Assembly (NCBI GenBank): GCA_949358305.1
Contig: OX442319.1
Span: 5,084,001-5,148,000, forward strand
Length of the DNA: 64,000 bases
Direction of reading: 5' to 3'
Source: Strigamia acuminata
Taxonomy: Eukaryota; Arthropoda; Chilopoda; Geophilomorpha; Linotaeniidae
Shown: positions 2,864 to 55,334 of the stretch, one piece after another
Numbering within the stretch: position 1 is the first letter of the stretch
Layout of the letters: every line of letters starts with the position of its first letter
Position numbers and translations under genes: made by a program
Notes under the pieces: generated by a model
The model's input: only the letters and a program-made list of their open reading frames with translations
What the model was told of the DNA's origin: nothing
Databases searched by the model: none

Positions 2864-3286
2864 ATGCCAGTTGTGTGAAGTTGTAAATTTTAAAAGAATT
2901 TTTTAAAAAATGCGCTGATGTAAAATTATGGGAAATACGAATAAATGAAAATTTTGATTGTTTTTCGGAAAAATGTTTTTTATTTTTTTAAATCAAATAT
3001 TGATTAAATAGTGGAAAAAAAGAGGAAATGCAGTTTTGCACACAATATAAGTTTTACAATTGATATTGAAGTTTTGTACTGAGTTAATTACAGTTTTGTA
3101 CGGTTAATTGCAGTTTTGAATGGTTAATTACAGTTTTGAACCGAATTAACTGCAGTTTTGCACGGAATACTGGAGTTTCTGCACTTAATATTGCATTTTT
3201 TTTATTTAATATTGCATTTTTCCACTTAACTTAATACTGCATTTTTTCACATAATATTGCATTTTCCTAATTAATATTGCATTACA
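2864..3286. other. 3' UTR and short A/T repeats, no gene seen
   Basis: It contains the 3' end of the glycine-rich gene and then an imperfect repeat of TGCAGTTTTG/CATTTT blocks (about 3027-3290). I see no open coding exon. Confidence 0.55.
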
Positions 3287-3975: not shown

Positions 3976-4059
3976 TCACTGTTAAGGATACAATAACACA
4001 ACCGCGTGTCATTGTCACGTCACTTTAATTATTGAAGCACGTAAATACACCAACTGCAG

Positions 4060-28713: not shown

Positions 28714-28930
28714 CAAAAAATGAGAACCAATGAGAGCCTGGTACACACAACTCTCGATTCGAGACAAGCGAGCGATTCTAAGTATTTCAGTTGGTAAACT
28801 GTGTTTCTCGGGAAACATTTTATCTTCTGGGAAACTGAATGCATTTGCCTGCTCTACTTTGCAACCTCACATTCACAAATTCTATCATCGTACAACGACC
28901 ACCCGCTAGTTCCCACACTGTCTGACTGCC

Positions 28931-29557
28931 ATGGCCTGTGCGAAACGTGCGCCTTCATTGCCGTACATCGCCGCCGCCAACCAACAGAATCCTTCCGCAG
29001 CGAAAATAACGCGCACCGTACTCAACTCTACGGACGACATTGTGCGTATTTGTAACACGTGCAAGCGCCTGCAGGTGTGCGGGTTCTACTACGAGGGCTT
29101 GTATCTACAGGATGCCGTGAAATTACTCGCGAAAAAGCCGGTCGGGACGTTTTTGGTGCGCGACAGCGCAGATTCACGATATCTGTTCGCGCTCTCCGTG
29201 CAGACTGAGTGCGGGCCGACCAGCATCCGGGTTCATTACGTGAACGGCCTCTTCCGACTCGACGCCGAAGCAAACTTATTGGACAACATGCCTCACTTCG
29301 AGTGCGTGCTCAAATTGGTCGAATTTTATCTGAAATTGAGTCAGAGCGACAAAGCACAGTCGCATATCTGGCTGGACCAGAACGGGCGCCGCGATTTAAA
29401 CATCAGGCTGCGTCGGCCGCTCTACTGTCGCGTGCAGTCGTTGCAGCATTTGTGCGGAACTCGAATATTAAAGAGTGTTGGGGAGAGGTCTGTGGAACAG
29501 CTTCCAGTACCAAAGGCCATTGAGACGTTTCTCAGAGATTATCCGTATCTTCTTTAA
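28931..29557 (+). CDS. Suppressor of cytokine signalling, type I (CIS/SOCS1-3 group)
   Basis: A single exon encodes 208 residues. After a short N-terminus comes an SH2 domain (about 50-150): GFYYEGLYLQDAVKLLAKKP, then VGTFLVRDSADSRYLFALSV with the phosphotyrosine-binding Arg of FLVR. A C-terminal SOCS box follows: SLQHLCGTRI is the Elongin-B/C box, LPVP is the Cullin-5 LPxP motif, and the protein ends FLRDYPYLL. Such proteins bind phosphorylated receptors or JAKs and recruit an ECS ubiquitin ligase to damp JAK-STAT signalling. The short N-terminus and the end D-YP-LL fit the vertebrate CIS/SOCS1-3 type, not the long SOCS4-7 type. Lack of introns is common in this group. Usually STAT-inducible; no clear STAT site was confirmed here. 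AATAAA is at about 29574. Confidence 0.93.
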   Translation: MACAKRAPSLPYIAAANQQNPSAAKITRTVLNSTDDIVRICNTCKRLQVCGFYYEGLYLQDAVKLLAKKPVGTFLVRDSADSRYLFALSVQTECGPTSIRVHYVNGLFRLDAEANLLDNMPHFECVLKLVEFYLKLSQSDKAQSHIWLDQNGRRDLNIRLRRPLYCRVQSLQHLCGTRILKSVGERSVEQLPVPKAIETFLRDYPYLL

Positions 29558-37000: not shown

Positions 37001-40000
37001 ATGAGATTTCGAATAAAATTACCAAACTGCACAACATGTGTGGTGGTAAACGTGGAGGAAACCGACAACCTGACGCTGGGGTCTCTAAAAAGCGCTACTG
37101 TCGACGCTCTTAAAAACCTTGGCATCGTAGGGTAGGCCATTTAAAAATGAACATTTTGGTCGCAATTTTCGATTAATTCACCTCAACTTTTATTTCTAAC
37201 GTTTCAGAACCCAATTCGAACTGAGTCTGAACGGCCAGGAACCAATTCTAGGCGAGGAATTAACGTTAAATGAGCTGGGACTGGTATCAGGTGACATTTT
37301 GCGAATTTTGACACCTACGCCAATACAAGATCACAGCAATCAGGTAGAAATGAAGTTGTTTGGTGGGATTTGTGGATTAATTTTGGTTTTTGTTGTTGTA
37401 GTTTGGTCAGTCGTCGTTTCATGTTGATGATGCAGTTGAGGTGGAGAGAGCGCCGTCTCCGGTGGCTTCTTCTTCTGGTTTGTCTTGTGAGGTGTCGGCT
37501 GATACGGAGACGTCGATGGCCGTGGACGGGGAGCAGCCTGTGGATAAAATTATAGTTAATAGGTAGTTTGGATTGGACGGGTTGATTGGGCTATTGAATG
37601 AAATGTTGAGAATTTTTGGGATGTTTTTGTTTGTTTTGATGAATTTTGTGGATAGTGGAGGAGTTTTTGATAAATTTTAAGATAATTTTGTGGATAGTGG
37701 AGGAGTTTTTGATAAAATTTAAGATAATTTTGTGGAGATTTGAGAAGAGTTGAGAAAATTTGATGAAATTTGATGAAATTTGAGGCATACTGAGAAAATT
37801 TGATGAGATTTGAGACGGCGAAAAAATCTGAGAAAATTTGAGAAAATTTGAGACAATCTGAGAAAACTTGAGAAAATTTTGTGGAAATTTTGAGAAAATT
37901 TTGTGGAAATTTTGAGAAATTTTTGTGGAAATTTTGATTAATTTTAAGGAAATTTTGATTAATTTTGAGGAAGTTTTGATTAATTTTGAGGAAATTTTGA
38001 TCATAGTTAATCTAGATTGTTTGAGGAAAATTTTTATAAATTTTGAGAGGAATTTTTGATCAATTTTGAGAGGAAATTTTGATCAATTTTGAGGGAAAAT
38101 TTTGATCAATTTTGAAAGAAAATATTTAATCAATTTTGAGAGGAAATTTTGATTAATTTTGAGTGAAAATTTTGATCAATTTTAATCAATTTTGAGAAAA
38201 TCTGAGAAATTTTGAGCAAATTTTCAGAAATTTACATAAAATCTGAGAAATTTTGAGCAAATTTTCAGAAATTTATACAAAATCTGAGAAATTTTGAGAT
38301 AACATTGAAGTAATATTCCATTTATATTCAGATGCCTTAATGAACCCATTTTATGTCGCGAATCTACACCGTATTCGGTACCTGAGGTACTCAAACAGTG
38401 CTATCAGTCATCCGCAGTCGAAACCGTTTACGATGCACTTGTCGTCGCCCTGCACGTCATGATGTTGGAAGCGGGATTTTTCCCCTCCGTAACTATCCAC
38501 ACACAAACACACAACACTCGACCATAACTCTTTATTTTTTTCAACAACAGATGGTACGAGATGATGGCAATCGAGTTCCAGCGTCGACAAAACTAGGCCA
38601 TGTTTACCGCATTCCTTACTGCCACACCTCGTGTCCAAACTCCACCGCTGTCCTTACTTGTGTTGTAATGGGTCCAATATTATCTGTAAATGGTAATTAC
38701 GCGATCATTTCCATCTCGACGGATAAATATGTCAAAATTCCATGTATTTTATTCGTTTTTAGGAAGTTGTGCCAGTGTAAATTTTCATTATACTCTTAAA
38801 CCATGTCATTTTGTACGAAACGATTATTTCAATGCTAGTGGTAAGAATTGTATTTGTTTGGGGTTTATTTAATTAATGGTTGATGGTGTTTTTGTTTGTT
38901 GTTACAGCCGTTCACAGCGTGTACCAAAATATGTCCAAACTTTCTCATCAGTTTAAAGATACTGTCGTCTACCCTTTGTTGACAGCAATGCAAGAAGGTA
39001 ACGGCGGGTGTGTTGAAATTGGTTTGGCAAATGCCGAACTTGGCAATAAATTAAATATTGTAAAGCTCCGAATTGTGGCTTGGTGTGTGTAGTGACGTGT
39101 GCCCATTTAGCGGCGAGGATTGGCTGCAGTTTATGTATTAAACGCAGGGTTCAGTTAAGCATTATTGGTTCTTCGCTTGACTTATTATAGTTGATGTTAC
39201 AAACGTAGCCTAGAAGTCTGAAAATGGCAAATATTTCTGACTAGAGTGCATGAAAAGTAGTTTTGTGCATAAAATTTAGGTTTGGTGCATAAAATTCCAG
39301 TTTTGTGCATAAAATTCCAGTTTTGTGCACAAAATTCCAGTTTTGTGCACAAAATTCAAGTTTTGTGCACAAAATTCAAGTTTTGTGCATAAAATTCCAG
39401 TTTTCTGCATAAAATTTAATTTTGTGCATAAAATTTTAGTTTTGTGCATAAAATTCCAGTTTTGTGCTTAAAATTCCAGTTTTGTGCACAAAATTCCAGT
39501 TTTGTGCACAAAATTCAAGTTTTGTGCACAAAATTCAAGTTTTGTGCATAAAATTCCAGTTTTCTGCATAAAATTTAATTTTGTGCATACAATTTTAGTT
39601 TTGTGCATAAAATTCCAGTTTTGTGCTTAAAATTCCAGTTTTGTGCATAAAATTCCATTTCGACCTGAAATGACATAAAAAAAATGGTTTGCTTTTAATT
39701 AATAAAATTAAACACCGGACTCAAATAATTGCCTCGGTCCAAATAGACGCTTGGAGAAGAGGTTGAATCTCAAACAAATGCGTTTATTCGGAGCTTTACA
39801 GTATTATTAGTTCGTATTGCTTTTCCAATTTGAATTCATCCATTGATTATTTTATTTACTCGGATTCAACGGTTAAACCAATTTTTCTTACAGAAGAGGG
39901 AATACCCTTCAGTTGCGGAATGATGAGTTTAGCCACCGAGATCAAGGTAAACAAAACCAAAAAAAAAAAATATTTTTAATGAAATTTCAATACTAATAAA

Positions 40001-40291
40001 AATTGTATTTTTGTTTTCTAAATTTTAGTTGCTCATTTTGAGTTATTTGAACGTGCGAAGTTTACTACACATGTCAGAAGTTTGCCGGGAATTCCGCACG
40101 CTCGCTGACGAATCGGCACTTTGGAAACGCCTCTGCTTTATTGATTTTCCAGCCAGTACGTATCCCAAAAATTAATTTATTTATTTATTTATTTTTACAA
40201 AAAAAAAATATTTTTTCGTTTATTTACACAGATATGTCACAGAGCTTTATAACCGAGACCTCTATAAGCTGGAAACACGTAAAATTATTGT

Positions 40292-40326
<35 letters not shown>

Positions 40327-41026
40327 TTGTTTATTTTTAGAAATATCGGATTCTGTATAAGAGTAGGAAATCCAATCCCAAGCACGTATGCAGTGTTTTT
40401 CCTTACCCGCCCCCCGCTTATCATATCCCGCCATTCCAAGGACTCTTTCCGCCGCGCGCTGGTTTTGGACCCCCTCTCATGCCTCCTGGCATTTTGGGAG
40501 GCGACTACGATCGAATTCCTTCATTTACAGGTGATACGAAATGGATTACGATTTTTTTACCCCTCAAAATTAACGGTATGTTCTTTTCTGACAGATCTCA
40601 GAAATTTATTTTTTTCCATTTTAGACATTGACAACTATTTTTGCTTGCGTTTTGTCGCCTTTTTAATCAATTTTGCTCTCTCTTCTTTGATTTGTAGTCA
40701 TTTCTTTTTTCTTTTTTCAGTGTTGTACTCTTTTAATTAAATAATCGTGTGAATTTACACATTTCGGCATGTTCGGCATGTTTTTGCGAATTTCTATAGC
40801 GTTGGAATTAACATTAATTAATGTATTTTAGTGTAAATAAAATGTATTTTAATTAATTTTGATTTTTAATTTTGTTTTAATTTCGTTTGTAGTTGTCGTC
40901 CCAGAGCGTGGACCGATGATGCCACCACCGGGTCCACGATTGTTCCATCCAGGACTTCCGCCTCCATTTCCCCCGACCCCTAGCATGCCTCTTTCGCATT
41001 GGCCTCGTTATCTATGGTTCCATTGA
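37001..41026 (+). CDS. FBXO7: F-box only protein 7
   Basis: Twelve exons join to 481 residues: 37001-37131, 37208-37343, 37402-37562, 38332-38488, 38551-38692, 38763-38840, 38908-38997, 39894-39946, 40029-40155, 40232-40278, 40341-40530 and 40893-41026. An N-terminal ubiquitin-like domain (1-78) is followed by an acidic linker. The FP domain shared with PI31 comes next (about 145-300; ALVVALHVMMLEAGFFPS, YRIPYCHTSC, VVYPLL). An F-box follows (about 312-360; ATEIKLLILSYLNVRSLLHM, WKRLCFIDFP), then a proline-rich tail (FPYPPP, PPGPRLFHPGLPPPFPP). FBXO7 is a substrate receptor of SCF ligases and binds PI31 and the proteasome; in mammals it also acts in mitophagy. The upstream in-frame TTG context is not a start; ATG 37001 fits the domain edge. 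A long 3' UTR reaches AATAAA at about 42624. Introns 3 and 7 hold minisatellites. Confidence 0.95.
37590..38310. repeat. A/T-tract minisatellite in FBXO7 intron 3
   Basis: Imperfect 19-22 bp units, such as TTTTGAGGAAATTTTGATTAA and TTTGAGAAAATTTGATGA, fill most of the intron. The homologous intron of the second copy has the same repeats in a different arrangement. Confidence 0.85.
39245..39665. repeat. 20-bp minisatellite (TTTTGTGCATAAAATTCCAG) in FBXO7 intron 7
   Basis: About 21 tandem units include CACAAAATTC and CATAAAATTT variants, with a higher-order repeat of roughly 180 bp (39325-39440 recurs at 39490-39590). The second FBXO7 copy has the same array with different variants. Confidence 0.95.
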
Positions 41027-42761
41027 AGAAGTATTCGGTTCTATACACACAAAAAAAAAAGAAATGCACAAAACAAATTATAATTGTGGTCTGCGCGAAG
41101 CTGCGATTCGTCATTCTCTGTTTAAATTTGGATGTTTCCCCACCGTTACTACAAATATCTCGGTTGTGTGGTTGGTGGAGTGGTTGCTGTCAAGTTTGGC
41201 TCGTTGGTTATGTCAAAATTGTTCTCAAATCGGGCCCGAGTACCCCTAGGGCTTCGCTATTTCTACTTATAATAATAATATTCCTCGGAACTTTTCTAGA
41301 AATTGCCTGTTTGTATTTTTTCACCGTTTTTTCGAATATTCAACTTTATACTCGATATGCTCACGTGAACATTTGCCTGTTGTCGGAATTGAGAAAAAAA
41401 AATCAGATTCTGAAAACGGTGTACTGCGTTATACAGTAGCTTCTTGGGTTGTGGGGAAACACGTGTGTTTTTTCGAATTTGTGCAAGTATTTTATTATTA
41501 ATTAATTATATCTCTTTTCGCATTGCGTATTTTTCGGGGTCGTCAATTCTAGAGAGTATTATAACGTTACGTCAAATCGTATAAATGTTTTCGAGTCTTG
41601 GAAAAAAAATTTTTGGATTTTTGTAGTGATTTTTATTGGTGGATTTATCATTTTATGTACGAGTTATTGTCGAGTTATTTTTTGTTTTTCTTTTTTGGGG
41701 TTTTTGAGTAGGCTTATTTGTTTAGGCCTATTTGTGTCTCGGTCGTTTACGCGGCGTGTCGATTTTTGGGTTTTTTCGTTTTAGTTTTTGATTTGTGGAT
41801 GAGAAATGATATTTTTTATTTTGTATAATATATTATTGATGAAAATTGTATTTTTTCTTTATTTTTTTTATTATTTTGTGTGGAATTTTTGAAATTATGC
41901 AGTTTACGGCTATTGTGGTATACGGCCATAGTTCGGTGTTAAATCGTTGGTTCATATAAATGTTTGTCAGTCGTGTGTGCTTCGGACTGCACAAATTTAA
42001 GATGAGAAAAATATTACAAATTTATTGGATGTAATTTTTAACAAAAACAAAAAACAAAAAAAAAACCCAGAGGCTACTGTAATGCATTATTTTTTTTCCA
42101 GGGTAGTTTGAAAACTGGCCATCTTAAAACACACAAAATATTGCACTTGGTGCTAGATTTTTGCTGCTCAAAATAGTTGCCGTGTAAAATAAATTATTCT
42201 AAATTATAATTTTTCCTTTTTTCTTTTTTTTTAAATTTTTTTTTCTTTTATTATTATTATTTTTTTAGGAGAAATATAAATAGAACTCAGGAAGATTTTT
42301 AAAAAATCTATAAAAAAAAAAGAATAATAATTAATAATAATAGCTTTTTTCCTTTGTAAATAATTTTTAAAAAATAGCAATTTTTTAATACTGTGTATAC
42401 ATATTTAATTATATAATAACTATGATTGATGAAACAAAGTGCATGGTTCAAACGACAAATGCAATTTAAAAGCAATACAAGATTTCATGGACTTTTTTTC
42501 CCTTATTTTCTTATTTTTTATTTTTTTTTCGGTTTATAAAATTTGAAGAAGATAAAAAAAAGGTTGAAAATTCATTTCCTTTTTTCTGCTAGTGTGATTT
42601 GTTGTAATTCGTGTGTGAGTTTAAATAAATGACTTTTTTGGGGTATTTGTCTCGAAATATGTTACGCACTAAACTCACCAGTTGGCGCTGAACCGGTGGC
42701 AAAAATCCTATTCCTAGATGGCGGACGATTCAATCAGTCTAGTGAGTCAATCAGTCTAGTT
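41027..42761 (+). other. FBXO7 3' UTR and duplicated PORCN-type promoter
   Basis: 41027 to about 42630 is the FBXO7 3' UTR; I see no coding exon in it. From about 42660 (GTTACGCACTAAACTCACCA) the sequence matches the PORCN upstream region at 46613 onward, including a GATGGCGGAC box at 42717-42726. It therefore probably acts as the promoter of the second FBXO7 copy. Confidence 0.65.
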
Positions 42762-45700
42762 ATGTCTTGTGAGTTGTCGGCTGATACGGAGACGTCGATG
42801 GCCGTGGACGGGGAGCAGCCTGTGGATAAAATTATAGTTAATAGGTAGTTTGGATTGGACGGGTTGATTGAGATAGTGAATGAAATTTTGAGAAAGTTTG
42901 GGATGTTTTTGTTTGTTTTGATTAATTTTGAGGGTATGGGAGTAGTTTTTGATAAATTTTAAGATAATTTTGTGGAGATTTGAGAAGAGTTGAGAAAATT
43001 TGATAAAATTTAATGAAATTTGAGACACTGAGAAAATTTGATGAAATTCGAGACCCTGAAAAAATTTGAGAAAATCTGAAAGAAGCTGAGAAAATTTGAG
43101 ACAATCTGAGAAAATTTGAGAAATCCTAATAAAATTTGAGAAATTCTAATAAAATTAGAGAAATCCTGATAAAATTTGAATAATTCTGATAAATTTGAGA
43201 AAATTTTGATCAATTTTGAGGAAATTTTGATCAATTTCAAGGAAATTTTGATCAATTTCAAGGAAATTTTAATCAATTTCATGGAAATTTTGATCAATTT
43301 CGAGGAAATTTTGAGGAAATTTTGATTAATTTTGAGAAATTTTTGATCAATTTTGAGAGAAAATTTTGATCAATTTAGAGAGGAAATTTTGATCAATTTT
43401 TAGGAAAACTTTGATCAATTTTGAGGAAAATTTTGATCAAATTTGAAGAAAATTTTGATCAAATTTGAAGAAAATTTTGATCAAATTTGAAGAAAATTTT
43501 GATCAAATTTGAAGAAAATTTTGATCAAATTTGAAGAAAATTTTGATCAAATTTGAAGAAAATTTTGATCAAATTTGAAGAAAATTTTGATCAAATTTGA
43601 AGAAAATTTTGATCAAATTTGAAGAAAATTTTGATCAAATTTGAAGAAAATTTTGATCAAATTTGAAGAAAATTTTGATCAAATTTGAAGAAAATTTTGA
43701 TCAAATTTGAAGAAAATTTTGATCAAATTTGAACAAAAATTTGATCAAATTTGAACAAAATTTTGATCAAATTTGAAGAAAATTTTGATCAAATTTGAAC
43801 AAAATTTTGATCAAATTTGAAGAAAATCTGATAAATTTTCAGATAACATTGAAGTAATATTTTATTTATATTCAGATGCCTTAATGAACCCATTTTATGT
43901 CGCGAATCTACACCGTATTCGGTACCTGAGGTACTCAAACAGTGCTATCAGTCATCCGCAGTCGAAACCGTTTACGATGCACTTGTCGTCGCCCTGCACG
44001 TCATGATGTTGGAAGCGGGATTTTTCCCCTCCGTAACTATCCACACACAAACACACCACACTCGACCATAACTCTTCTTTTTTTCCCAACAACAGATGGT
44101 ACGAGATGATGGCAATCGAGTTCCAGCGTCGACAAAACTAGGCCATGTTTACCGCATTCCTTACTGCCACACCTCGTGTCCAAACTCCACCGCTGTCCTT
44201 ACTTGTGTTGTAATGGGTCCAATATTATCTGTAAATGGTAATTACGCGATCATTTCCATCTGGACGGACAAATATGTCAAAATTCCATCTATTTTATTCG
44301 TTTTTAGGAAGTTGTGCCAGTGTAAATTTTCATTATGCTCTTAAACCATGTCATTTTGTACGAAACGATTATTTCAATGCTAGTGGTAAGAATTATATTT
44401 TAATACGGTTCATTTAATCAATGGGTAATGATGTTTTTGTTTGTTGTTACAGCCGTTCACAGCGTGTACCAAAATATGTCCAAACTTTCTCATCAGTTTA
44501 AAGATACTGTCGTCTACCCTTTGTTGACAGCAATGCAAGAAGGTAACGGCGCGTGTGTTGAAATTGGTTTGGCAATAACTGAAATATCGTATAGCTCCGA
44601 ATTGTGGTTTGGTGCGTGTAGTGACGTGTGTCCATTTAGCAGCGAAGATTGGCTGCAGTTTATGTATTAAACGCCGGGTTCAGTTAAGCATTATTGGTTC
44701 TACGCTTGACTTATTGTAGTTGATGTTACAAACGTAGCCTACAAGTCTGAAAACGTCAAATATTTCTGACTAGAGTGCATGAAAAGTTGTTTTGTGCATA
44801 AAATTCCGGTTTTGTGCATACAATTCCGGTTTTCTGCATAAAATTCCGGTTTTGTGCATAAAATTCCCGTTTTGTGCATAAAATTCCCGTTTTGTGCATA
44901 TAATTCCCGTTTTGTGCAAAAATTCCGGTTTTGTGCATAAAATTCCGGTTTTGTGCATAAAATTCCGGTTTTGTGCATAAATTTCCGGTTTTGTGCATAA
45001 ATTTCCGGTTTTGTGCATAAATATTTCGATTTTGTGCATAAAATTCCAGTTTTGTGCATAAACTTCCAGTTTTGTGCATAAAATTCCAGTTTTGCGCATA
45101 AAATTCCAGTTTTGCGCATAAAATTCCAGTTTTGTGCATAAAATTCTATTTCGACCTGAAATGCCAAAAAAGATTGGTTTGTTTTTAATTAATCAAATTA
45201 AACACCGGACTCAAATAATTGTCTCGGTCCAAATAGACGCTTGGAGAGGAGGGTGAGTCTCAAACAAATGCGTTTATTCGGAGCTTTACTGTATTATTGG
45301 TTCGTATTGCTCGGTGTTCTGTCGAATTTTGCCTTTCCAATTTGAATTCATCCATTGCTTGATTATTTTATTTACTCGGAATCGACGGTTAAACCAATTT
45401 TTCTTACAGAAGAAGGAATACCCTTCAGTTGCGGAGTGATGAGTTTAGCCACCGAGATCAAGGTAAACAAAAGCAAAAAAAAATATTTTTAATGAAATTT
45501 CAATACTAATAAAAATTCTATTTTTGTTTTCTAAATTTTAGTTGCTCATTTTGAGTTATTTGAACGTGCGAAGTTTACTACACATGTCAGAAGTTTGCCG
45601 GGAATTCCGCACGATCGCTGACGAATCGGCACTTTGGAAACGCCTCTGCTTTATTGATTTTCCTTCCAGTACGTATTCCAAAAATTAATTCATTAATTTA

Positions 45701-46076
45701 TTTATTTTTACAAAAAAAAAATATTCTCTCGTTTATTTGCACAGATATGTCACAGAACTTTATAACCGAGACCTCTATAAGCTGGAAACACGTAAAATTA
45801 ATTAATTTAATCGTTCGTACTTCGTACTCACATTTTTTTAACGAAATTGTTTATTTTTAGAAATATCGGATTCTATATAAGAGGAAATCCAATACCAAGC
45901 ACGTACCGGTATGCAGTGTTTTTCCTTACCCGCCCCCGCCATTCCCGCCATTCCAAGGGCTCTTTCCGCCACGTGCTGGTCGTGGACCTCCTCTCTTGCC
46001 TCCTGGAATTTTAGGAGGCGACCACGATAGATTTCCTTCATTATTTCCAGGGCAGTTTGAAAACTGGCCATCTTAA
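42762..46076 (+). CDS. Second FBXO7 copy lacking the ubiquitin-like domain, fully open
   Basis: Nine exons join without any stop or frameshift to 330 residues: 42762-42844, 43876-44032, 44096-44237, 44308-44385, 44453-44542, 45410-45462, 45542-45668, 45745-45791 and 45861-46076. All splice sites match those of FBXO7 exons 3-11. The start ATG replaces a TTG of FBXO7 exon 3 at the duplication junction, so the protein begins MSCELSADTETSMAVDGEQP. It keeps the FP domain and F-box but has no ubiquitin-like domain. The last exon ends differently: a ~1.57-kb deletion relative to copy 1 joins ...GGDHDRFPSL directly to FPGQFENWPS and a stop. It could be a working SCF adaptor with altered partners or a young pseudogene. 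The intact frame over nine exons favours function or very recent origin. Confidence 0.82.
42880..43830. repeat. Expanded 22-bp minisatellite in the first intron of the second FBXO7 copy
   Basis: After diverged units shared with FBXO7 intron 3, about 17 near-identical 22-bp units (AAATTTGAAG plus AAAATTTTGATC) run from 43437 to 43827. Copy 1 has no such block, so it expanded after the duplication. Confidence 0.95.
44775..45150. repeat. 20-bp minisatellite (TTTTGTGCATAAAATTCCGG) in the second FBXO7 copy
   Basis: About 19 units correspond to the array at 39245-39665, but most have CCGG or CCCG instead of CCAG. The variants have been homogenised separately since duplication. Confidence 0.95.
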
Positions 46077-46803
46077 AACACACAAAATATTGCACTTGGT
46101 GCTAGATTTTTGCTGCTCAAAATAGTTGCCGTGTAAAATAAATTATTCTAAATTATAATTTTTCCTTTTTTCTTTTTTTCTTTTCTTTTTTTTTTTCTTT
46201 TACTATTATTTTTTTAGGAGAAATATAAATAGAACTCAGGAAGATTTTTAAAAAATCTATAAAAAAAAAAGAATAATAATTAATAATAATAGCTTTTTTC
46301 CATTGTAAATAATTTTTAAAAAATAGCAATTTTTTAATACTGTGTATACATATTTAATTATATAATAACTATGATTGATGAAACAAAGTGCATGGTTCAA
46401 ACGACAAATGCAATTTAAAAGCAATACAAGATTTCATGGACTTTTTTTTCCCTTATTTTCTTATTTTTTATTTTTTTTTTCGGTTTATAAAATTTGAAGA
46501 AGATAAAAAAAAGGTTGAAAATTCATTTCCTTTTTTCTGCTAGTGTGATTTGTTGTAATTCGTGTGTGAGTTTAAATAAATGACTTTTTTGGGGTATTTG
46601 TCTCGAAATATGTTACGCACTAAACTCACCAGTTGGCGCTGAACCGGTGGCAAAAATTCTATGCCTTGATGGCGGACGTTTCAATCAATGTCTAGTTATG
46701 TCGCAGTCAACACCACAAAAAGAGAAGCCATATATACCATAACTTAAATGCTAAATGCAATTAGTTCTTAATTTATTTTATTTTATTTCCCTCGCAATAT
46801 AAT
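46077..46803 (+). other. 3' UTR of second FBXO7 copy, then PORCN promoter and leader
   Basis: From 46077 to about 46600 the sequence matches the FBXO7 3' UTR at 42104-42640, with AATAAA at about 46575. From about 46613 the PORCN promoter begins. A YY1-like GATGGCGGAC is at 46668-46677. Confidence 0.65.
46698..46742 (+). other. Upstream ORF in the PORCN leader
   Basis: A 14-codon frame (MSQSTPQKEKPYIP, stop) lies 61 bases before the PORCN ATG. Its start ATGTC is the same ATG that opens the second FBXO7 copy at 42762. Whether the leader is transcribed this far is inferred. Confidence 0.5.
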
Positions 46804-49050
46804 ATGTACGAAGATATCCCAACCTATGACGACATTGAATACGAATATGAAGACTTGTACGAAGATGATGATAATTTATATTGGGAAGGAGAAGAAAGTT
46901 ATTCACCCATACCACAGTCCATTGGCTTATCCCAGCTGACAACAGCATGCATTATACCAACTTTGATTGATTCTTTGAATCCAGTTGGAAAGCTCATAAT
47001 TTTTAATGTACTTTTAAGAGCAATCACATCATTTGGTGATGAAAATTTAATTTTTTATTCAATAATTTGTACTAATTTATATTTTTCTTTAAAATAGTGT
47101 CTTTTAAGCCTTTGTGGATCCACATACTGTCCAGCATTATGGGTCTTGTGGCATTGCATTTGTTTGCTGGATACAAAATGATTTATGTGATGGTTTTGTG
47201 TTGCTTGTCTTATCTGGTGTTTTTTGTTATTCAGAAAGCGAGTAATATAAAATATGGGCCGTTGAGTGCCACCATTACTGTGATGTTTATAGTTATTTGG
47301 TAAATATATTTAAAGTAAAAGTTGTATTAACTGGCATCGGAATAACCGGAAAGGTCTATTAATTAACCGGAATGTTTTCGAAAAACTACGTTAAAAATAT
47401 ATAACTGTGCGAAGTCCGATAATTTTAAATTAAATAGTGGAGAAAATATCATTTCTGAACATGATCAGTGGGACCGATGCATTAACGATATTAATTTTGC
47501 CTTGCGCGTCTAAATCTTACGTATAAAGCTCCGTTATCTGGAAAATTTTGATTTCCGGTCACGATCTTGCCAGATAAAGCAGCTTGTACTGTATTTTCAC
47601 GATTTTTTATTTAACTAGTGAAGTTTTTGTTGTCGAATCGAAGGAATGGCACATAATAAGAGGGATTCAAATGATAATTGTGATGAAGGTGATTTCTCTG
47701 GGCTTTGATTTGGATTCAGGGATCACGCCTCGGCTACCCACGCTCATCGAGTTCTTCGGCTACTGTCTTTGTCCTGGCTCTGTCATTTTTGGGCCTTGGC
47801 ACAGCTACAAACAATACTCAAATTTCTTCTCCAAATTGCATCTGGTAAATTATTAAACAAATTTAAATTTCCTCAAAAATTAAATTTTTATTTTTCTCAA
47901 ATTTAAGCCTCGCGTAGGAATTTTATTTCTTCGGATAATCATCGCTGGAGTTGTGAGCGTCGGTTTTTTATTACTTTCAACTTGTTTCCTGCAATGGATG
48001 GGCCAAGATGTCGAAAATAAGTACGGAATTTAGTAATGGATAGTTGTTTTTGCTGTAATTTAATTTATTCTTGCCGATTTAGATGGTTCGCGGCGTATCG
48101 CGACGCGTTATCGTTCCGGAGCAGTCATTATTTCATTAGTTTTATATCTGAATTTACATTACTCATTGTGGCAGTGGAGTCGTTTCAGATGAATGTTTGG
48201 TATAATGAATTTTTAAAAGAAATAAAATTTATTAAATAAAAATTATTTTTTTATTTTATTTCAGGAAATGTTTCGTATCTCAACCGCACAGAACTGAATT
48301 TCCCCGCTCACTAACCGACGTCGTGGTGGCGTGGAACATTCCCATGCATTATTGGCTTAAAACTTGTAATTTTCTCGTGTTTTAAAGATTATTTAACCTG
48401 TGTGAATACAACTCGAATTTCCTTCCAGATGTTTTCAAAGTTGTCAAACCGTTGAACTCGTTTGCGGGGATTTTAAGCACTTACGCTGCTAGTTCGTTGT
48501 TACATGTACGAAGAATAATAATAATAATAATAATAATAACTGTGACTTTTTAATGACGGTTTTTGTTGTTTGTTTAGGGCTTAAATTTCCAACTTGCAGC
48601 AGTTTTGTTATCGCTGGGATTTTATACGTATGTGGAATTCATATTTCGACACAAATTGGCGTTGATATTCAACGCGTGCATTTTGACCCGGAAATGTAAA
48701 AACGATTGCTCACATCACTACAAACAAGTACTAAAATTAAATCAATAAAAATTGAATAATAAATTAATTTTTTATTTTTTTTTAGTATCATCCATTAGTA
48801 GTTTTAACCAATTTAGGATTTCTGGTTTTGACAATTTTCCATTTAGCTTATTTAGGAGTGATGTTTGATGACAATTCGTCGCTCCAAGACGAGGTAGAAA
48901 TGATTTTGTGACAAAATTTTATAATTTCTTTAACTTTTCTTTATTTTTTAGGGTTACAATATGGATCACACACTTAGTAAATGGAGTAACCTAAATTACG
49001 CCAGTCATTCAATAGTTTTAGGAATGTATACAATTTACTTATTAATCTAA
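46804..49050 (+). CDS. PORCN: Porcupine, Wnt-specific protein-serine O-palmitoleoyltransferase
   Basis: Ten exons join to 474 residues: 46804-47035, 47098-47299, 47619-47844, 47908-48020, 48083-48199, 48265-48365, 48429-48505, 48578-48727, 48786-48893 and 48952-49050. An acidic Tyr-rich N-terminus (YDDIEYEYEDLYEDDDNLYW) precedes the multipass MBOAT core. Diagnostic blocks are RGIQMIIVMKVISLGFDLDS, GYCLCPGSVIFGPWHSY, VVAWNIPMHYWLKTYVFK with the conserved Asn, and STYAASSLLHGLNFQLAAVL with the catalytic His. NDCSHHY, IFHLAYLGVMFD and KWSNLNYASHS complete the family pattern. In the ER membrane it attaches palmitoleate to Wnts, which they need for secretion. The protein ends LGMYTIYLLI, near the vertebrate end point. 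Its promoter region was copied by the FBXO7 duplication upstream. Confidence 0.96.
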
Positions 49051-49439
49051 TTTTTTTTTTTTTTTTTTTTACATATTTTTTGAATACTTTTATGATATTA
49101 TATTTTTTATTTTTTAATTATTTGTCAAAGAAAAAAAATTCCGATCATGAAAGCAATAATGTGAATAAACGATTTTACAAACACAACAATTTGTCGAACT
49201 TGCATTATTAACTCGCCGCACACCAAACAATTTTAAAATGTTGAAATTGTATCCATGACAACAGATTATCTATCTGACAGGAATTGGAAGATTTTTAATT
49301 TTTCAGAAAAAACGCAACAGCTCTCTTTCAAAATTATCTCGGCAGAAGGTCTGTACGGAAAATTCTAGCTTTCCAAGCACAATTCATATAATTGTACTCG
49401 TCTTTCCCACCTAGGATCGTCTTGAACGACTAAATTAAT
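49051..49439. other. Intergenic between PORCN and the small-HSP-like cluster
   Basis: It has the PORCN 3' UTR (AATAAA at about 49163) and the 5' region of the first cluster gene. GGAAAATTCTAGCTTTCC (49359-49376) contains a GAAnnTTC pair, the core of a heat-shock element, but this short motif could be chance. Confidence 0.5.
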
Positions 49440-51119
49440 ATGTTTAACGTGTCCATCGAAGGACACGACCGAGCAGCCTTCAATATAAATGGTGCACATC
49501 GATTTAATTACTATATAGAAACCATGAAGCGGGAAATACGGCGGGAAAGGAATGGCATTAAGACACCGGTTTCACGTCCCCGGAAAAAGAAGAAAGAAAC
49601 CAAACTACCTTGTCGGATCCGACACGAGAAAAAAATTAAACCAGGGACGAAACTGGGGACGAAACTGAGGACGAAACCGGGGACGAAACTGGGGACGAAA
49701 CTGGGGACGAAACTGAGAACGAAACTGGGGACGAAACTAGGGACGAAACTGGGGACGAAACTGGGGACGAAACCGGGGACGAAACCGGGGACGAAACCGG
49801 GGACGAAACCGGGGACGAAACCGGGGACGAAACCGGGGACGAAGCCGGGGACGAAGCCGAGGACGAAACCGGGGACGAAACCGGGGACGAAACCAGGGAT
49901 GAAACCAAGGATGAAACCAGGGATGAAACCATGGATGAAACCGGGGACGAAACCGGGGACGAAACCGGGGATGAAACCAAGGATGAAACCAGGGATGAAA
50001 CCATGGATGAAACCGGGGACGAAACCGGGGACGAAACCGGGGATGAAACCAAGGATGAAACCAGGGACGAAACCAGGGATGAAACCATGGATGAAACCAG
50101 GGATGAAACCAGGGACGAAACCAGGGATGAAACCATGGATAAAACCAGGGACGAAACCAGGGACGAAACCAGGGACGAAACCATGGATGAAACCAGGGAC
50201 GAAACCAGGGACGAAACCAGGGACGAAACCAGGGACGAAACCAGGGACGAAACCAGGGACGAAACCAGGGACGAAACCAGGGATGAAACCATGGATGAAA
50301 CCAGGGACGAAACCAAGGATGAAACCAGGGACGAAACTAGGGACGAAACTAGGGACGAAACCAGGGACGAAACCAGGGACCAACAAGGGTAAAAAGGTGG
50401 TGGGCAAATCTCGTCAGACCGCCGTCGAACGGTACAAGAAATTTAAGAAGACTCTCCAGCGGATTAATCCGAAAATGAAAAAAAGAGCCCAAATGATTCT
50501 CGCGCAGCGTGGAAAGCACAAACTGAAAACCCGGAAAGTAGTAATACCTAAAAAGAAAATAATTGTGAAGGCTGTCAAAAAAACACGAGCCGTTGCTAAA
50601 AAATCGACAGCGAAAAAGGTGGTCGCGAAATATAATGTGAAAAATGCTCGCGAGCGGAGAACGGAAACACGGAATCAGATGAAGGCGGCCGCCATTTTTA
50701 AGGCACCGCTGAAGATGCCGCCGAAACCCCGCCCGATTCACGTTCCGGACAAACCGATTGGGGTGGTGACTTGCTCCAAAGAGAAGTGGGTTTTGAAACT
50801 CGATTTTAGCAACATGGCTGTGCGGAATGTCAAAGTATTTATAGCCGACAGGAAGGTGGAAGTCCGGGGACTATATCGCGCGCACAAGAACGTGTGGAAG
50901 AACATCAACGAAAACTACGTGGTTCCTGCCGGTTATCCGTGCGTCGTTCATAATAACAAAAACGGGATTTGGACTATTGTGGCGAGAGATTGTAAAGGGA
51001 AATGCACGTGGCATCGACCAGAGTGGCCGTTTTCCGACGGGTTCAAGTGGCCGTGGCAGGAAACGCCAACCTGGTCTTCGGGAGAGAAGAGACAGTTTAC
51101 TGAGTTTAATCTGCACTAG
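49440..51119 (+). CDS. Small-HSP-like cluster gene A: lysine-rich tetrapeptide repeats plus alpha-crystallin-like domain
   Basis: One exon encodes 559 residues; a shorter start at 49524 (MKREIRRERNG) is equally likely. Residues about 68-315 are some 60 copies of K-(P/L)-(G/R/W)-(T/M), from a 12-bp DNA repeat. A second basic part (KKVVGKSRQTAVERYKKFKK; KKSTAKKVVAKY) precedes the C-terminal domain at about 438-515: KWVLKLDFSNMAVRNVKVFI, VEVRGLYRAHKNVWKNINEN, YVVPAGYPC, GIWTIVARDC. The order of strands, the (N/E)NY-(I/V)P-GYP block and the final G-WTIVA strand fit an alpha-crystallin (HSP20) fold. The tail CKGKCTWHRPEWPFSDGFKW is shared with genes B and D. Its strongly basic repeats suggest binding to acidic partners (nucleic acid or microtubules), but that is inference. 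No intron, same strand as its paralogues. Confidence 0.8.
   Translation: MFNVSIEGHDRAAFNINGAHRFNYYIETMKREIRRERNGIKTPVSRPRKKKKETKLPCRIRHEKKIKPGTKLGTKLRTKPGTKLGTKLGTKLRTKLGTKLGTKLGTKLGTKPGTKPGTKPGTKPGTKPGTKPGTKPGTKPRTKPGTKPGTKPGMKPRMKPGMKPWMKPGTKPGTKPGMKPRMKPGMKPWMKPGTKPGTKPGMKPRMKPGTKPGMKPWMKPGMKPGTKPGMKPWIKPGTKPGTKPGTKPWMKPGTKPGTKPGTKPGTKPGTKPGTKPGTKPGMKPWMKPGTKPRMKPGTKLGTKLGTKPGTKPGTNKGKKVVGKSRQTAVERYKKFKKTLQRINPKMKKRAQMILAQRGKHKLKTRKVVIPKKKIIVKAVKKTRAVAKKSTAKKVVAKYNVKNARERRTETRNQMKAAAIFKAPLKMPPKPRPIHVPDKPIGVVTCSKEKWVLKLDFSNMAVRNVKVFIADRKVEVRGLYRAHKNVWKNINENYVVPAGYPCVVHNNKNGIWTIVARDCKGKCTWHRPEWPFSDGFKWPWQETPTWSSGEKRQFTEFNLH
49641..50385. repeat. Coding 12-bp minisatellite (ACGAAACCAGGG)
   Basis: About 62 units encode KPGT/KPGM and variants, giving long open frames on both strands and in all phases. 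Only the frame joined to the alpha-crystallin-like domain is supported as real. Repeat number is likely to vary between individuals. Confidence 0.95.
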
Positions 51120-51349
51120 TGTCAGCAAATGTCAAACAACTAATGAAACAAAAGAATTAAAAAATAGAAAATTTAAACGTTTTATTTTATTTCATTTCGT
51201 TTTATTCCATTTGACAAGGTTTCACGAACCGGAACACCATGGTCACTTATATCCGGGTGGCCCAAATCAAAAAAATGTACCGGTGCAGGTACACCTTGGA
51301 CCAAGGGGACACAGTACTTTTCAAAAAGTACTGCATCTCATGGTGGGAG

Positions 51350-51935
51350 GGAGGATTATTTTCGACCTGGATTTCTTTCGACCAGGAATATTATCGACTT
51401 TTGGCAAAACTGGACGCTGTTCGACCAGGATTGTAGTCGACCAGGATTCCTTTCGACCGGATTTTTTTCGACCAGGAATATTTTCGACCAGGAATATTTT
51501 CGACCAGGATTTTTTTCGATCAGGATTTCTCTCGACTAGGATTCCTTTCGACCGGGAAAATTTTCGACTTGGTTGAAATAAAATTTGCATTTTTTATTTT
51601 GTGTTTTTCATCATTTTTGTTTATTTTTCTCTTTCTTTATAGTCGATTTTATAATTTTTTGGTGTTTTCTCATCATTTTTTTTTCATTTTTGATGTTTAT
51701 TTTCTTATTTTCGACCAAGATCATTTGATCCAAGACGAAAGGAATCCTGGTCGAAAGGAATCCTGGTTGAAAGGAATCTTGGTCTAAAGGATTCCTAGTC
51801 GACAGAATTCCTGATCGAAAGAATTCCTGATCGAAAACATTAGCGGTCGAAAAATATCAGGTCGAAAATAATCCAGTCGAAATTTATCCAGTCGAAAATA
51901 GTACTGGTCGAAAGGAATCCAGTCTAAAAAATTCC
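51350..51935. repeat. Fold-back minisatellite: TTTCGACCAGGA on one arm, TCCTGGTCGAAA on the other
   Basis: The left arm (51350-51560) repeats TTCGACCAGGAATATTTTCG; the right arm (51710-51935) repeats the reverse complement, GGTCGAAAGGAATCCTGGTC. The spacer is T-rich. The transcript could fold into a long imperfect hairpin. Confidence 0.88.
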
Positions 51936-52499
51936 ACCGTGCCCTCGTGGTAGTGGCACTGGTACAGTACCACTTTTTTTAGTACCACACAACTTTACTT
52001 TAGGTAAAATCTAAAAAAAAATAGCAAAATCTTACAAAATCTAGCAAAATCTTGCAAAATCTAGCAAAATCTCACAAAATCTAGCAAAATCTCAAAAAAT
52101 CTAGCAAAATCTCACAAAATCTAGCAAAATCTCACAAAATCCTGCAAAATCTCGCATGATCTCTTACGGGTACATCTGAAAAATCCACAAAAATACCGCT
52201 GAAGAGATTCAAAAAGTACCACAATCAAACCTGGCGAATTGGAACAAAAATTGATCAAAATCGCAAATATCTCGAGAACGAAAACTCGGATCGTCAAAAA
52301 CTAAACACCAAACGAAAGAAGACCAAAAACTGCACCAAAAACTTTAATCAAACAACACTGCCCACAACTAATGATCAATACATATTTAATTGAACAATAT
52401 ACCCGCATATCCGCCATTACATACCGGTATTCCTACAACAATTTCCCCTGTCTCACGCTTCAACAATATCACACAGTTGCCAACTCAATGACGTTCCAT

Positions 52500-52512
52500 G
52501 TTCCTTAGCAAC
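52500..52512 (+). promoter_or_regulatory. X-box-like motif GTTCCTTAGCAAC upstream of gene B
   Basis: The identical 13-mer occurs upstream of gene C (54101-54113), about 95-105 bases before each hairpin. The right half TAGCAAC is a good RFX half-site; the left half is imperfect. GTTGCCAAC lies nearby at about 52477. Confidence 0.5.
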
Positions 52513-52605
52513 TTGAATCTTTCGGCCATAATAATGTCGTAAAAAAATTCGTAAAATTCGGATATATACTAAACAGTAAACACATTTAGTCCCGTCCGAA
52601 AAAAA

Positions 52606-52631
52606 GGGCTGAGTTCAACAGAACTCAGCCC
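52606..52631 (+). promoter_or_regulatory. Perfect hairpin GGGCTGAGTTC-AACA-GAACTCAGCCC in the gene B leader
   Basis: An 11-bp stem with a 4-base loop lies 52 bases before the ATG. Gene C has the same stem at 54199-54220. It may be a palindromic protein-binding site or an RNA hairpin in the 5' UTR; the TATA-like GATATATACT at 52561 suggests it is transcribed. Confidence 0.75.
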
Positions 52632-52683
52632 ACGCATCCTCGCTTCCACTGACAAACGAACAACTCTTTTCTCGTCTCCCGAA

Positions 52684-53208
52684 ATGGCGTCGAAGGGCGA
52701 AAACACAAACACCACAGCCGACAAACCCGAAAACGAAGATCCAGACTCATCCGCGGTCGCGGCCGTGCGGGCGAAAAAGACGGTCGCTGCGAGAAGGGCT
52801 TCGGAGCAGAAAAACGGGAAACGAGCCAGTCGGACGACGCCGGGACCGAAATCGCACGCGGATCCCGCCCAGGACCAACCAATAGGCAAAGTGACGGTCA
52901 ACGACGAGAAATGGGTGTTGACTTTCGATTTGAGCAACATGGATGTGCGTCAACTCAAAGTGAACACGGTGGACAGGGAGGTGCAAGTGCGGGGACTCTA
53001 TCGCGGCCACAAGAACGTGTGGAAGAACATCAACGAAAACTACACGATTCCCGACGGTTATCCGTGCGTGTCGCACAACAACAAGAACGGGAGTTGTTGC
53101 ATCGTGGCGAGAAATTGTCAGGGGAAATGCGAGTGGCATCAGCCGGGGTGGCCGTTTCCTGAAGGGTTCAAGTGGCCGTGGGAGGGACGCCCAAATTGGC
53201 CTTTTTGA
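52684..53208 (+). CDS. Small-HSP-like cluster gene B
   Basis: One exon encodes 174 residues. A short Ala/Lys/Arg-rich N-terminus (1-62) leads into the alpha-crystallin-like domain (about 64-140): KPIGKVTVNDEKWVLTFDLS, NMDVRQLKVNTVDREVQVRG, LYRGHKNVWKNINENYTIPD and GSCCIVARNC. The tail is CQGKCEWHQPGWPFPEGFKW, ending PWEGRPNWPF. Canonical small HSPs are ATP-independent chaperones, but this family lacks the usual A-x-x-x-n-GxL signature and the C-terminal IxI motif, so chaperone activity is not assured. I know no named family with the CxGxCxWHxPxWPF tail. The leader has a TATA-like box, a hairpin and an X-box-like site, all shared with gene C. It is the best-preserved member of the cluster. Confidence 0.85.
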   Translation: MASKGENTNTTADKPENEDPDSSAVAAVRAKKTVAARRASEQKNGKRASRTTPGPKSHADPAQDQPIGKVTVNDEKWVLTFDLSNMDVRQLKVNTVDREVQVRGLYRGHKNVWKNINENYTIPDGYPCVSHNNKNGSCCIVARNCQGKCEWHQPGWPFPEGFKWPWEGRPNWPF

Positions 53209-53386
53209 TTGAAAAGGCGGAAAGGAATTGTAAAAATTTTGCGTTTTAGTTAAATGTTTTGATTTTATAATTGTTTAAAAAAATTGACGCTGATATATCG
53301 AATGAAATAAATTTACACAATTTATCCAATAAAATCAAATAAAAAATCAGAAAAAATATTTTATTTGCCCAATAGGATTTTTAATA

Positions 53387-53961
53387 CAGTCGAAACTTCT
53401 TTATAACGAATCGTAACCCGAAAAAATCGATCCGTTATAACGAAAATTTGTTATAACGAAAATTCGTTACAACGAAAATTCGTTATTACGATAATTCGTT
53501 CTAACTAAAATTCGTCGTAACTAAAATTCATTTTCCGTAAATTCGTTTAAACTAAAATTCGTTATAACAAAAATTCGTTAAAACAAAAATTCGTAAAACA
53601 AAAATTCGTAAAAACAAAAATTCGCTGTCACAAAAATTCGTTATAACAATAATTCGTTATAACAAAAATTCGTTATAACAAAAATTCGTTATAACAAAAA
53701 TTCGTTATAACAAAAATTCGTTATAACAATAATTCGTTATAACAAAAATTCGTAAAACAAAAATTCGTAAAAACAAAAATTCGTTGTCACAAAAATTCGT
53801 TTTAACAATAATTCGTTATAATAAAAATTCGTTATAACGAAATTCGGTATATCAAAATTTTTTAACATGGTGTTCTATGGCCAGCCAACCAAACTAGCCA
53901 TTTTTAGGTATTCGTTATATCGATGATTCGTTATATCGCGATTTATAAAGACTTTCGACTA
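53387..53961. mobile_element. Tc1/mariner (pogo/Tigger-like) MITE with an internally amplified end
   Basis: The ends CAGTCGAAACTTCTTTATAA (left) and, reversed, TAGTCGAAAGTCTTTATAAA (right) are inverted repeats. TA duplications lie at 53385-53386 and 53962-53963. The interior is some 25 copies of a ~16-bp unit AACAAAAATTCGTTAT, apparently derived from the terminal TTATAACGAA sequence. There is no transposase. Confidence 0.85.
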
Positions 53962-54100
53962 TATTATTTCTCATCTTAAAATTGGGTTGTTTTCTCTGCC
54001 AAGCGTGTGTGTGTCTCCGTGCAGCTTCTCGTGTTTGTTTAGATTTCTATCTGCGATCGTCTCATGTGCTGCAACAATGCTGCGGAGTTTCCAAGACAAC

Positions 54101-54113
54101 GTTCCTTAGCAAC
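54101..54113 (+). promoter_or_regulatory. X-box-like motif GTTCCTTAGCAAC upstream of gene C
   Basis: Identical to the site at 52500-52512 and in the same relative place. It is followed in both by (T/C)TTTCGGC or TCATTCGGC and an A-rich stretch, so about 100 bp of promoter is shared. Confidence 0.5.
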
Positions 54114-54198
54114 CTAAGTCATTCGGCAATAACAAAATGGCAAAAAGACGTAAAAATGTAGAATGCTAAACATCACGTATATTCCTGAGTGAAAACAA

Positions 54199-54220
54199 GG
54201 GCTGAGTTCAAACTCAGCCC
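54199..54220 (+). promoter_or_regulatory. Hairpin GGGCTGAGTT-CA-AACTCAGCCC in the gene C leader
   Basis: It has the same stem as in gene B but a shorter loop, so the palindrome itself has been kept while the centre changed. It lies 42 bases before the ATG. Confidence 0.75.
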
Positions 54221-54262
54221 TAACACCCGCACTGACAAGCAAAGCTCTTCTCACTTTGTGAA

Positions 54263-54958
54263 ATGGCGCCCAGAAAAGCCACGACAAAACGACCCGTTCC
54301 TCGAAAACCGGCTGCAACCAGTGACGTGCGGGCGAAAAAAAAAGTCGTAAAACGAAACGTGAAAACGACCACCCCGAAAAAAAAGGAAAAACGAACAAAT
54401 CGCGCTCCGGCGGCCGCCAAACCGAAGAAATCGACGAAACCGACGAATAAACACAAATCGCCCGCGAATCGCAATAAGCATTACAAACCCCACAAGCCGC
54501 ACGCACCGCGGAAACCGCAGAGACCGCAGAGAGCCCCGCAGAAACCGCAGAGACCGCAGAAACCTCACAACCACTACCGGTACCAGAGACCGCAGAACCC
54601 GGCGAAACCGGCGCGACAGCACAAACCGTTAGGAACCGTGAGATTGAACAAAGACAAGTGGATGTTGACTGTTAATATTAGCAAGCTGGATGTTCGTCAA
54701 ATCAAAGTGAACACGGTGAACAGGGAGGTGAAGATCCGGGGGTGTTATAAGACGAGGAAGAACGAGTGGAAGGAAATCAACGAAAATTACGTCATTCCGG
54801 AAGGTTATCTGTGCATCGCGGAGACGCACAAGGACGGGAATTGGTCGATCGTGGCGAAAAATTGTCAAGGAAACTGTCCGTTTCATCAACCCGGGGTGGC
54901 CGCGCCCCGAAAGCTATTGGGGGGGACGTCCAAACTAAATAGATCGCTTAGAATTTAG
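54263..54958 (+). CDS. Small-HSP-like cluster gene C, tail frameshifted
   Basis: One exon encodes 231 residues. Residues 1-118 are very basic, with Lys/Pro/Arg repeats (KPQRPQRAPQKPQRPQKPHN). The alpha-crystallin-like domain follows (about 120-197): KWMLTVNISKLDVRQIKVNT, VKIRGCYKTRKNEWKEINEN, YVIPEGYLC, GNWSIVAKNC. After CQGNCPFHQPG the protein reads VAAPRKLLGG instead of the family WPFPEG. A run of four G at about 54893-54896, where gene D has three, shifts the frame. Without the extra G the end would read WPRPESYWGGRPN and stop, like gene B. So the present tail is probably a recent frameshift or a sequence error. The core domain is intact. The promoter is shared with B. Confidence 0.82.
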   Translation: MAPRKATTKRPVPRKPAATSDVRAKKKVVKRNVKTTTPKKKEKRTNRAPAAAKPKKSTKPTNKHKSPANRNKHYKPHKPHAPRKPQRPQRAPQKPQRPQKPHNHYRYQRPQNPAKPARQHKPLGTVRLNKDKWMLTVNISKLDVRQIKVNTVNREVKIRGCYKTRKNEWKEINENYVIPEGYLCIAETHKDGNWSIVAKNCQGNCPFHQPGVAAPRKLLGGTSKLNRSLRI

Positions 54959-55334
54959 ATGGTTTATTTATTTGCAGCTGTGTAGATTATGTAAAAACTT
55001 GTAAAAATGTGTAAAAGAAATGTAAAAAGGCGTAAAAGTAATGTAAAAAGCTCAATGTTTAGTATATTTGATAAATTTTTTTAATTAAAAATTTGCCGGC
55101 AACAAAATGAAATAATTTGCCAAAAAATGTGTACAATAAAAGGAAATAAATTTCAGTGTAACAATAGTCTATTAATGTGTAATTGTCTGATAATACAACA
55201 ATATTATTACGAACAATGTTGTAGTTGCTCGTTCGTTACTTCGTTGGCCATAATAAAATTAAAAAATCGTAAAAATTCAAAAATGAAGTAAAAAATAAAA
55301 ATTCTGATTTCTTGCCGATCTTTCTTTTCGTGAA
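54959..55334. other. Intergenic between genes C and D
   Basis: It holds the C 3' UTR and a short promoter for D. The leader CTTTCTTTTCGTGAAATGGC resembles the last bases of the B and C leaders, but the hairpin is absent. Confidence 0.55.

Follow-up and report, generated by a model that had tools for sequence, protein, structure and literature searches.

A tandem duplication in the centipede Strigamia acuminata has placed the leader of PORCN, together with one upstream ATG, in frame before a copy of the neighbouring gene FBXO7 that lacks the ubiquitin-like domain (Ubl). The locus lies in the window, i.e., the whole stretch of 64,000 nucleotides analysed here, to which positions refer unless a contig is named. 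We propose that a single microhomology-mediated tandem duplication, one of whose breaks lay in FBXO7 exon 3 and the other in the leader of PORCN, the gene that follows, would have joined the PORCN 5' end (leader, presumed promoter, and one upstream ATG) in frame to FBXO7 exons 3-11, yielding a chimera. A microhomology deletion at CATT, which we infer to have followed the duplication, would have deprived copy 2 of the last FBXO7 exon and given it 11 new terminal residues, and later gene conversion would have partly homogenised the 5' part of both copies, with exon 11 diverging. We consider this account, taken as a whole, very probable. The duplicated unit of 5,282 bp begins in mid-exon 3 of FBXO7 and ends in the PORCN 5' leader, with a right copy that stops at about 46702:

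37481..42762, + strand, left unit copy, starting at TGTC within FBXO7 exon 3 and running past the FBXO7 3' end into the PORCN-derived leader (alignments)
42763..42766, + strand, TGTC microhomology at the joint of the PORCN leader to FBXO7 exon 3 (three sequences compared)
42763..46702, + strand, right unit copy, shortened by a deletion (alignments)

As a preliminary description of this DNA had proposed, FBXO7 is repeated from mid-exon 3 onward at 42763, in two collinear blocks: 37481-40525 aligns with 42763-46042, and 42095-42736 aligns with 46044-46687 (97.4% over 644 columns), the latter forming a 3' flank with 15 mismatches in 642 aligned bases. The left breakpoint falls inside FBXO7 exon 3 and the right one inside the PORCN leader, i.e., a head-to-tail duplication of two neighbouring genes. 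Comparison of the FBXO7 parent CTGGTTTGTCTTGTGAG and the PORCN-leader parent CTAGTTATGTCGCAG with the joint CTAGTTATGTCTTGTGAG also bears out the microhomology claimed there, the 4-bp TGTC being common to both parents, and TCTAGTTATGTC is found in the PORCN leader at 46691-46702, where it had been placed, with its ATG at 46698. The reported near-identity of about 100 bp to the PORCN leader is real but forms only the last part of a near-identical stretch of about 640 bp. The PORCN leader in front of copy 2 is where the left unit terminates on its right side and was therefore not gained separately; the idea of a separate capture event is superseded, since an ordinary tandem duplication whose breakpoints fall in two adjacent genes yields everything.

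With 15 mismatches in 642 aligned bases, chance similarity is ruled out. A dispersed promoter-like repeat was also rejected by searching the species' own genome (237,517,015 bases in 157 contigs, with the window on contig C8), in searches that pass over simple repeats and score no more than the best candidates. With 42100-42762 as the query, two of 15 scored places cover the leader part, both in the window, and the other 13 match only query positions 92-243, none of them the leader; with 42700-43000, two of four scored places lie outside the window and match the intron part only.

Both parents, FBXO7 copy 1 and PORCN, are intact as open reading frames:

37001..41026, + strand, FBXO7 copy 1, complete, 12 exons, 478 aa (gene model, Pfam, PDB match, S. 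maritima match)
37001-37131, 37208-37343, 37411-37562, 38332-38488, 38551-38692, 38763-38840, + strand, FBXO7 copy 1 exons 1-6 (gene model)
38908-38997, 39894-39946, 40029-40155, 40232-40278, 40341-40530, 40893-41026, + strand, FBXO7 copy 1 exons 7-12 (gene model)
42624..42629, + strand, AATAAA with a GT-rich stretch after it, possible poly(A) signal of copy 1 (motif scan only)
46610..46803, + strand, PORCN leader as scanned, with seven upstream ATGs (sequence scan)
46804..49050, + strand, PORCN (porcupine O-acyltransferase), 10 exons, 474 aa (gene model, S. maritima porcupine, MBOAT)

FBXO7 copy 1 carries the Pfam domains F-box-like and PI31_Prot_N, its best PDB match is F-box only protein 7 (4l9c, E 5.1e-22), and its best protein match is T1IWE7 of Strigamia maritima (91% identity). 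The Pfam scan gave no match for the Ubl of this copy, which we take to be present from its place in the protein and from FBXO7 orthologues. A form of copy 1 longer by 15 residues is possible, because the S. maritima FBXO7 model reads through the exon-11 donor used in copy 1. PORCN, a gene with a role in the Wnt pathway, has S. maritima porcupine as its best match (75% identity), and its MBOAT domain was found. The S. maritima orthologue also begins MYEDIPTYDD, which supports the start at 46804; the captured ATG (46698) is therefore an upstream ATG. The parent of the chimeric start codon is thus present in the PORCN leader, as had been suggested, but it is one of seven upstream ATGs, opening a 14-codon uORF, and not the start of PORCN.

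The second copy is a chimeric gene:

42660..42761, + strand, PORCN-derived leader, presumed promoter of copy 2 (promoter activity inferred from position only)
42762..46076, + strand, FBXO7 copy 2, the chimeric gene, 9 exons, 330 aa (gene model, Pfam)
42762-42844, 43876-44032, 44096-44237, 44308-44385, 44453-44542, + strand, first five exons of FBXO7 copy 2, corresponding to FBXO7 exons 3-7 (gene model)
45410-45462, 45542-45668, 45745-45791, 45861-46076, + strand, last four exons of FBXO7 copy 2, corresponding to FBXO7 exons 8-11 (gene model)
46039..46042, + strand, deletion joint at CATT, followed by 11 new C-terminal residues (sequence comparison)

Copy 2 consists of the PORCN leader and one upstream ATG in frame with FBXO7 exons 3-11. 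The open 330-residue protein and the in-frame fusion to exon 3 that had been described both hold in the nine-exon gene model: the ATG at 42762 is in frame with residue 114 of copy 1, the frame has no internal stop, and all eight introns are GT-AG. Since it begins at the equivalent of copy 1 residue 114 and exons 1-2 are absent, copy 2 lacks the N-terminal Ubl, and its PI31-like FP and F-box domains are retained (PI31_Prot_N, 4.3e-6; F-box-like, 1.1e-11). Its predicted product would be a Ubl-less FBXO7-like protein with FP and F-box.

The PORCN-derived leader could act as the promoter of copy 2. Relative to the PORCN leader, it carries a 15-bp insertion. Within it, ATGGCGGAC at 42718 opens a 13-codon uORF whose stop (42757-42759) lies two bases short of the captured ATG; the PORCN counterpart, from 46669, likewise terminates before the ATG at 46698. 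Two GTGAGT sites, at 42742 and 42769, might remove or truncate the captured start by splicing, though they score low (4.6 and 4.1, against 3.9-9.2 for the 20 modelled donors of FBXO7 copy 1 and PORCN). The AATAAA at 42624, with its counterpart at 46575, is only 138 bp upstream of the captured ATG, and copy 2 has an in-frame downstream ATG at residue 13, both of which would suit transcription of copy 2 by read-through from copy 1, or translation from the downstream ATG, in place of use of the PORCN leader. PORCN itself, however, follows copy 2 as copy 2 follows copy 1, and it presumably has its own start; by eye no clear trans-splice acceptor was seen; we consider such read-through or downstream initiation improbable. 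A second AATAAA at 42188, with its counterpart at 46137, was found by the same motif scan.

In addition to the features first described, copy 2 has undergone a 1.56-kb deletion and its C-terminus is changed. It lacks 1,563 bp of copy 1 (40526-42088, up to the CATT ambiguity), a stretch found at one place in the own-genome search; the lost DNA includes the last FBXO7 exon, and both deletion ends carry CATT. The frame continues into former 3'-flank sequence and ends in the 11 new residues. The conserved proline-rich C-terminus is absent with exon 12, and the diverged proline-rich part of exon 11 stays. Because the FBXO7 of S. maritima has the last exon, copy 2 is the copy that lost it, which rules out an ancestral short FBXO7 with the exon inserted later into copy 1.

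An assembly artefact, i.e., split haplotypes or a misjoin, might also create such a pair, and the published assembly (237.5 Mb in 158 scaffolds, QV 59.6) is described as one haplotype, not fully phased, from which curation removed 23 haplotypic duplications (PMC10556566). Against this, the copies differ by 0-28% depending on the region and have private indels and the private 1.56-kb deletion, and the breakpoints lie within two genes at a 4-bp microhomology. The HiFi data behind that assembly (98x, from fragments of 12-20 kb) could span the 9.2-kb pair (PMC10556566), 37001-49100 contains no N, and no further copy appears among the scored places. An artefact is therefore very unlikely. All ten scored PORCN matches in the own genome fall at one locus, and all 14 scored matches to FBXO7 exons 3-11 are the two copies only; exons 1-2 occur once among the scored matches, besides a 67-bp fragment at three places on contig C6. 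In S. maritima one FBXO7 protein was found, where assembly or annotation could have missed a copy. The three C6 fragments (L021:3689-3755, L022:3265-3331, and L023:3715-3781), which are about 40 kb apart, match exon 1 at 82-85% identity over the 67 bp; one of the three has a stop inside the match, and every frame closes at most about ten residues later. By eye, exon-5-like sequence follows the fragment in L021 and L023, and the set resembles an old FBXO7 pseudogene that has been multiplied along C6.

Protein change between the copies is one-sided. With the S. maritima FBXO7 protein as the outgroup, all 12 polarisable replacements before the deletion joint fall on copy 2 and none on copy 1 (sign test, p = 0.0005), a count that leaves out seven differences in the new tail of copy 2, residue 5 (V/L, a gap in S. 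maritima), and the one site that differs in all three; five further sites changed in S. maritima alone. Silent changes are unpolarised, the outgroup being the S. maritima protein and not DNA. Copy 2 also carries the three coding indels, all of them multiples of three, against 3 of 13 non-coding gaps (p = 0.036, one-sided), a set to which intron 7 contributes pieces that were cut by hand and may have artefactual end gaps. Without those pieces the proportion is 2/6 (p = 0.12, one-sided), and with every gap in the intron and flank alignments it is 4/30 (p = 0.006, one-sided).

Divergence along the copies is a mosaic. Exons 4, 5, and 7 are identical (389 bp), whereas the intervening introns 4-6 differ by 4-16%. 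Silent differences amount to 2 in 170.5 sites (1.2%) in exons 3-10 versus 11 in 43.2 (25%) in exon 11 (p = 4e-7), and the longest run of identity in the coding sequence, which spans 398 of the 948 sites (27 mismatched in all), was reached in none of 20,000 shuffles. The introns differ at 51 of 761 sites (excluding intron 3, the minisatellite part of intron 7, and all of intron 10, where 17/60 positions are mismatched), which is more than the 3' flank (15/642, 2.3%; p = 0.0001), the silent sites of exons 3-10 (p = 0.003), or the replacement sites of these exons (6/603.5; p = 3e-8). Silent sites of exons 3-10 and the 3' flank show no difference (p = 0.55), and replacements are not significantly fewer than changes in the 3' flank (p = 0.08 for exons 3-10 and 0.71 overall).

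The simplest account of this mosaic is gene conversion of the 5' part, with exon 11 spared. The low-divergence exons beside more divergent introns track the exon borders, a pattern that plain conversion tracts do not produce; constraint or faster change of the introns may add to conversion. A template of spliced copy, i.e., cDNA-templated conversion that homogenised the exons, would account for the identity of exons 4, 5, and 7 between divergent introns and for the gap between silent sites and introns noted above. Yet the non-coding 3' flank is as low as the silent sites, and the introns are of low complexity and may simply change faster, so that a cDNA template is less likely to have added to the exon/intron contrast than DNA conversion with faster intron change, and as the source of the homogenised exons it seems highly improbable. 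Given the mosaic, the copies may be older than they look, and the 2.3% divergence of the flank cannot by itself date the duplication. Where conversion has acted, the high identity of exons 3-10 is also unusable as proof of selection.

The preliminary description had proposed dN/dS between the two copies as a check. Measured pairwise, and hence unpolarised, it is 0.30 over all exons (dN 0.0193, dS 0.0635), combining 0.85 in exons 3-10 (dN 0.010, dS 0.012) with 0.20 in exon 11 (dN 0.0638, dS 0.3114). With dN close to dS, exons 3-10 show no sign of protein-level constraint across those exons. In exon 11, the comparison of replacement and silent change gives p = 0.001, or p = 0.11-0.31 if about half of the silent changes are copy 1's. 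Selection on copy 2 is thus ambiguous. The same structure could belong to a copy that is non-functional and has not yet decayed, its frame kept intact by youth and by conversion from copy 1. The similar dN and dS of exons 3-10, the confinement of all 12 polarisable replacements to copy 2, and the loss of the conserved C-terminus are consistent with this, as is the simulated probability that no stop would arise without selection (0.35 with 24 random substitutions and 0.25 with 32). The frame-keeping of all three coding indels (p from 0.006 to 0.12, depending on the choice of non-coding gaps) and the low ratio of exon 11, with the two ranges of p just given, argue the other way. We give a non-functional copy 2 a somewhat less than even chance; that copy 2 is expressed and makes a protein is, judged from the sequence, about an even bet.

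Comparable gene births are known from flies. Among 1,116 tandem duplications in Drosophila yakuba lines, 76 chimeric genes are described, 24 of them with raised expression (PMC5460883), and the assertion that births of this kind are rarely caught so clearly is accordingly too strong. As here, tandem duplications that ignore gene borders are reported there to join the 5' end of one neighbour to the 3' end of the other; unlike here, they are variants among population lines with RNA-seq (PMC5460883). The centipede chimera comes from one assembly and is known from DNA alone, with joints at base level, a later deletion, and apparent conversion. Sdic of Drosophila melanogaster goes back to a segmental duplication that spanned two adjacent genes (PMC7475035). 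It resembles our case in this origin, in a fusion accompanied by deletions, in gene conversion with the parent, and in having one copy type whose 3' end diverged once it had escaped conversion, but it was later amplified in tandem and affects sperm competition (PMC7475035), whereas copy 2 of the centipede is single. No paper in the literature collection searched names both Strigamia and FBXO7, and the centipede case appears to be new, although the kind of gene birth is known from the D. yakuba chimeras and Sdic.

In human FBXO7 isoform 2, use of an alternative 5' exon leaves out the Ubl (PMC3037939). Like copy 2, this isoform starts from another 5' exon, has no N-terminal Ubl, and has FP and F-box; unlike copy 2, it is an isoform of one gene and keeps the proline-rich region (PMC3037939), whereas copy 2 is a separate gene with its C-terminus replaced. 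By analogy, the copy 2 protein could perhaps work like isoform 2, under PORCN-type expression. Outside the well-studied flies, the locus is an example, resolved to the base at both joints and accompanied by an outgroup protein, of a truncated gene that has come to stand in frame behind the 5' end of its neighbour. If copy 2 is expressed, the FP/F-box core of FBXO7 would be parted from the Ubl and the C-terminus at gene level, a split that is only partial in humans, via isoforms, and it would become possible to test how fast the new end of a chimera diverges while conversion holds the rest. A fuller and more speculative reading, which we think unlikely, is a Sdic-like birth in a myriapod: copy 2 would be an expressed, Ubl-less FBXO7 with a new tail, under the promoter of a Wnt-pathway gene, in which conversion (possibly cDNA-templated) keeps the FP/F-box core alike and the tail evolves freely.

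Short-unit repeats, with units of 10-22 bp where measured, fill introns and intergenic DNA of the window (37563-38331, 42845-43875, 39240-39660, 44780-45150, and 49554-49997; a second set, from repetitive frames, at 12189-13147, 56394-56974, and 59741-60387). The arrays differ between the FBXO7 copies, e.g., an 11/22-bp array in intron 3 of copy 2. Downstream of PORCN, four neighbouring open frames within 49434-55826 (49434, 52573, 54236, and 55308) share by eye a W/C-rich C-terminal domain; of the two that were scanned neither had a Pfam match, and the four are perhaps a lineage-specific tandem family. At 1742-4738, two adjacent frames with glycine-rich repeats and KRRRD blocks may encode secreted or cuticular proteins with dibasic cleavage sites. 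The window further contains a SOCS-family exon with SH2 and SOCS box (28910-29557) and a leucine-rich-repeat protein in a single 527-residue open frame (57221-58804).
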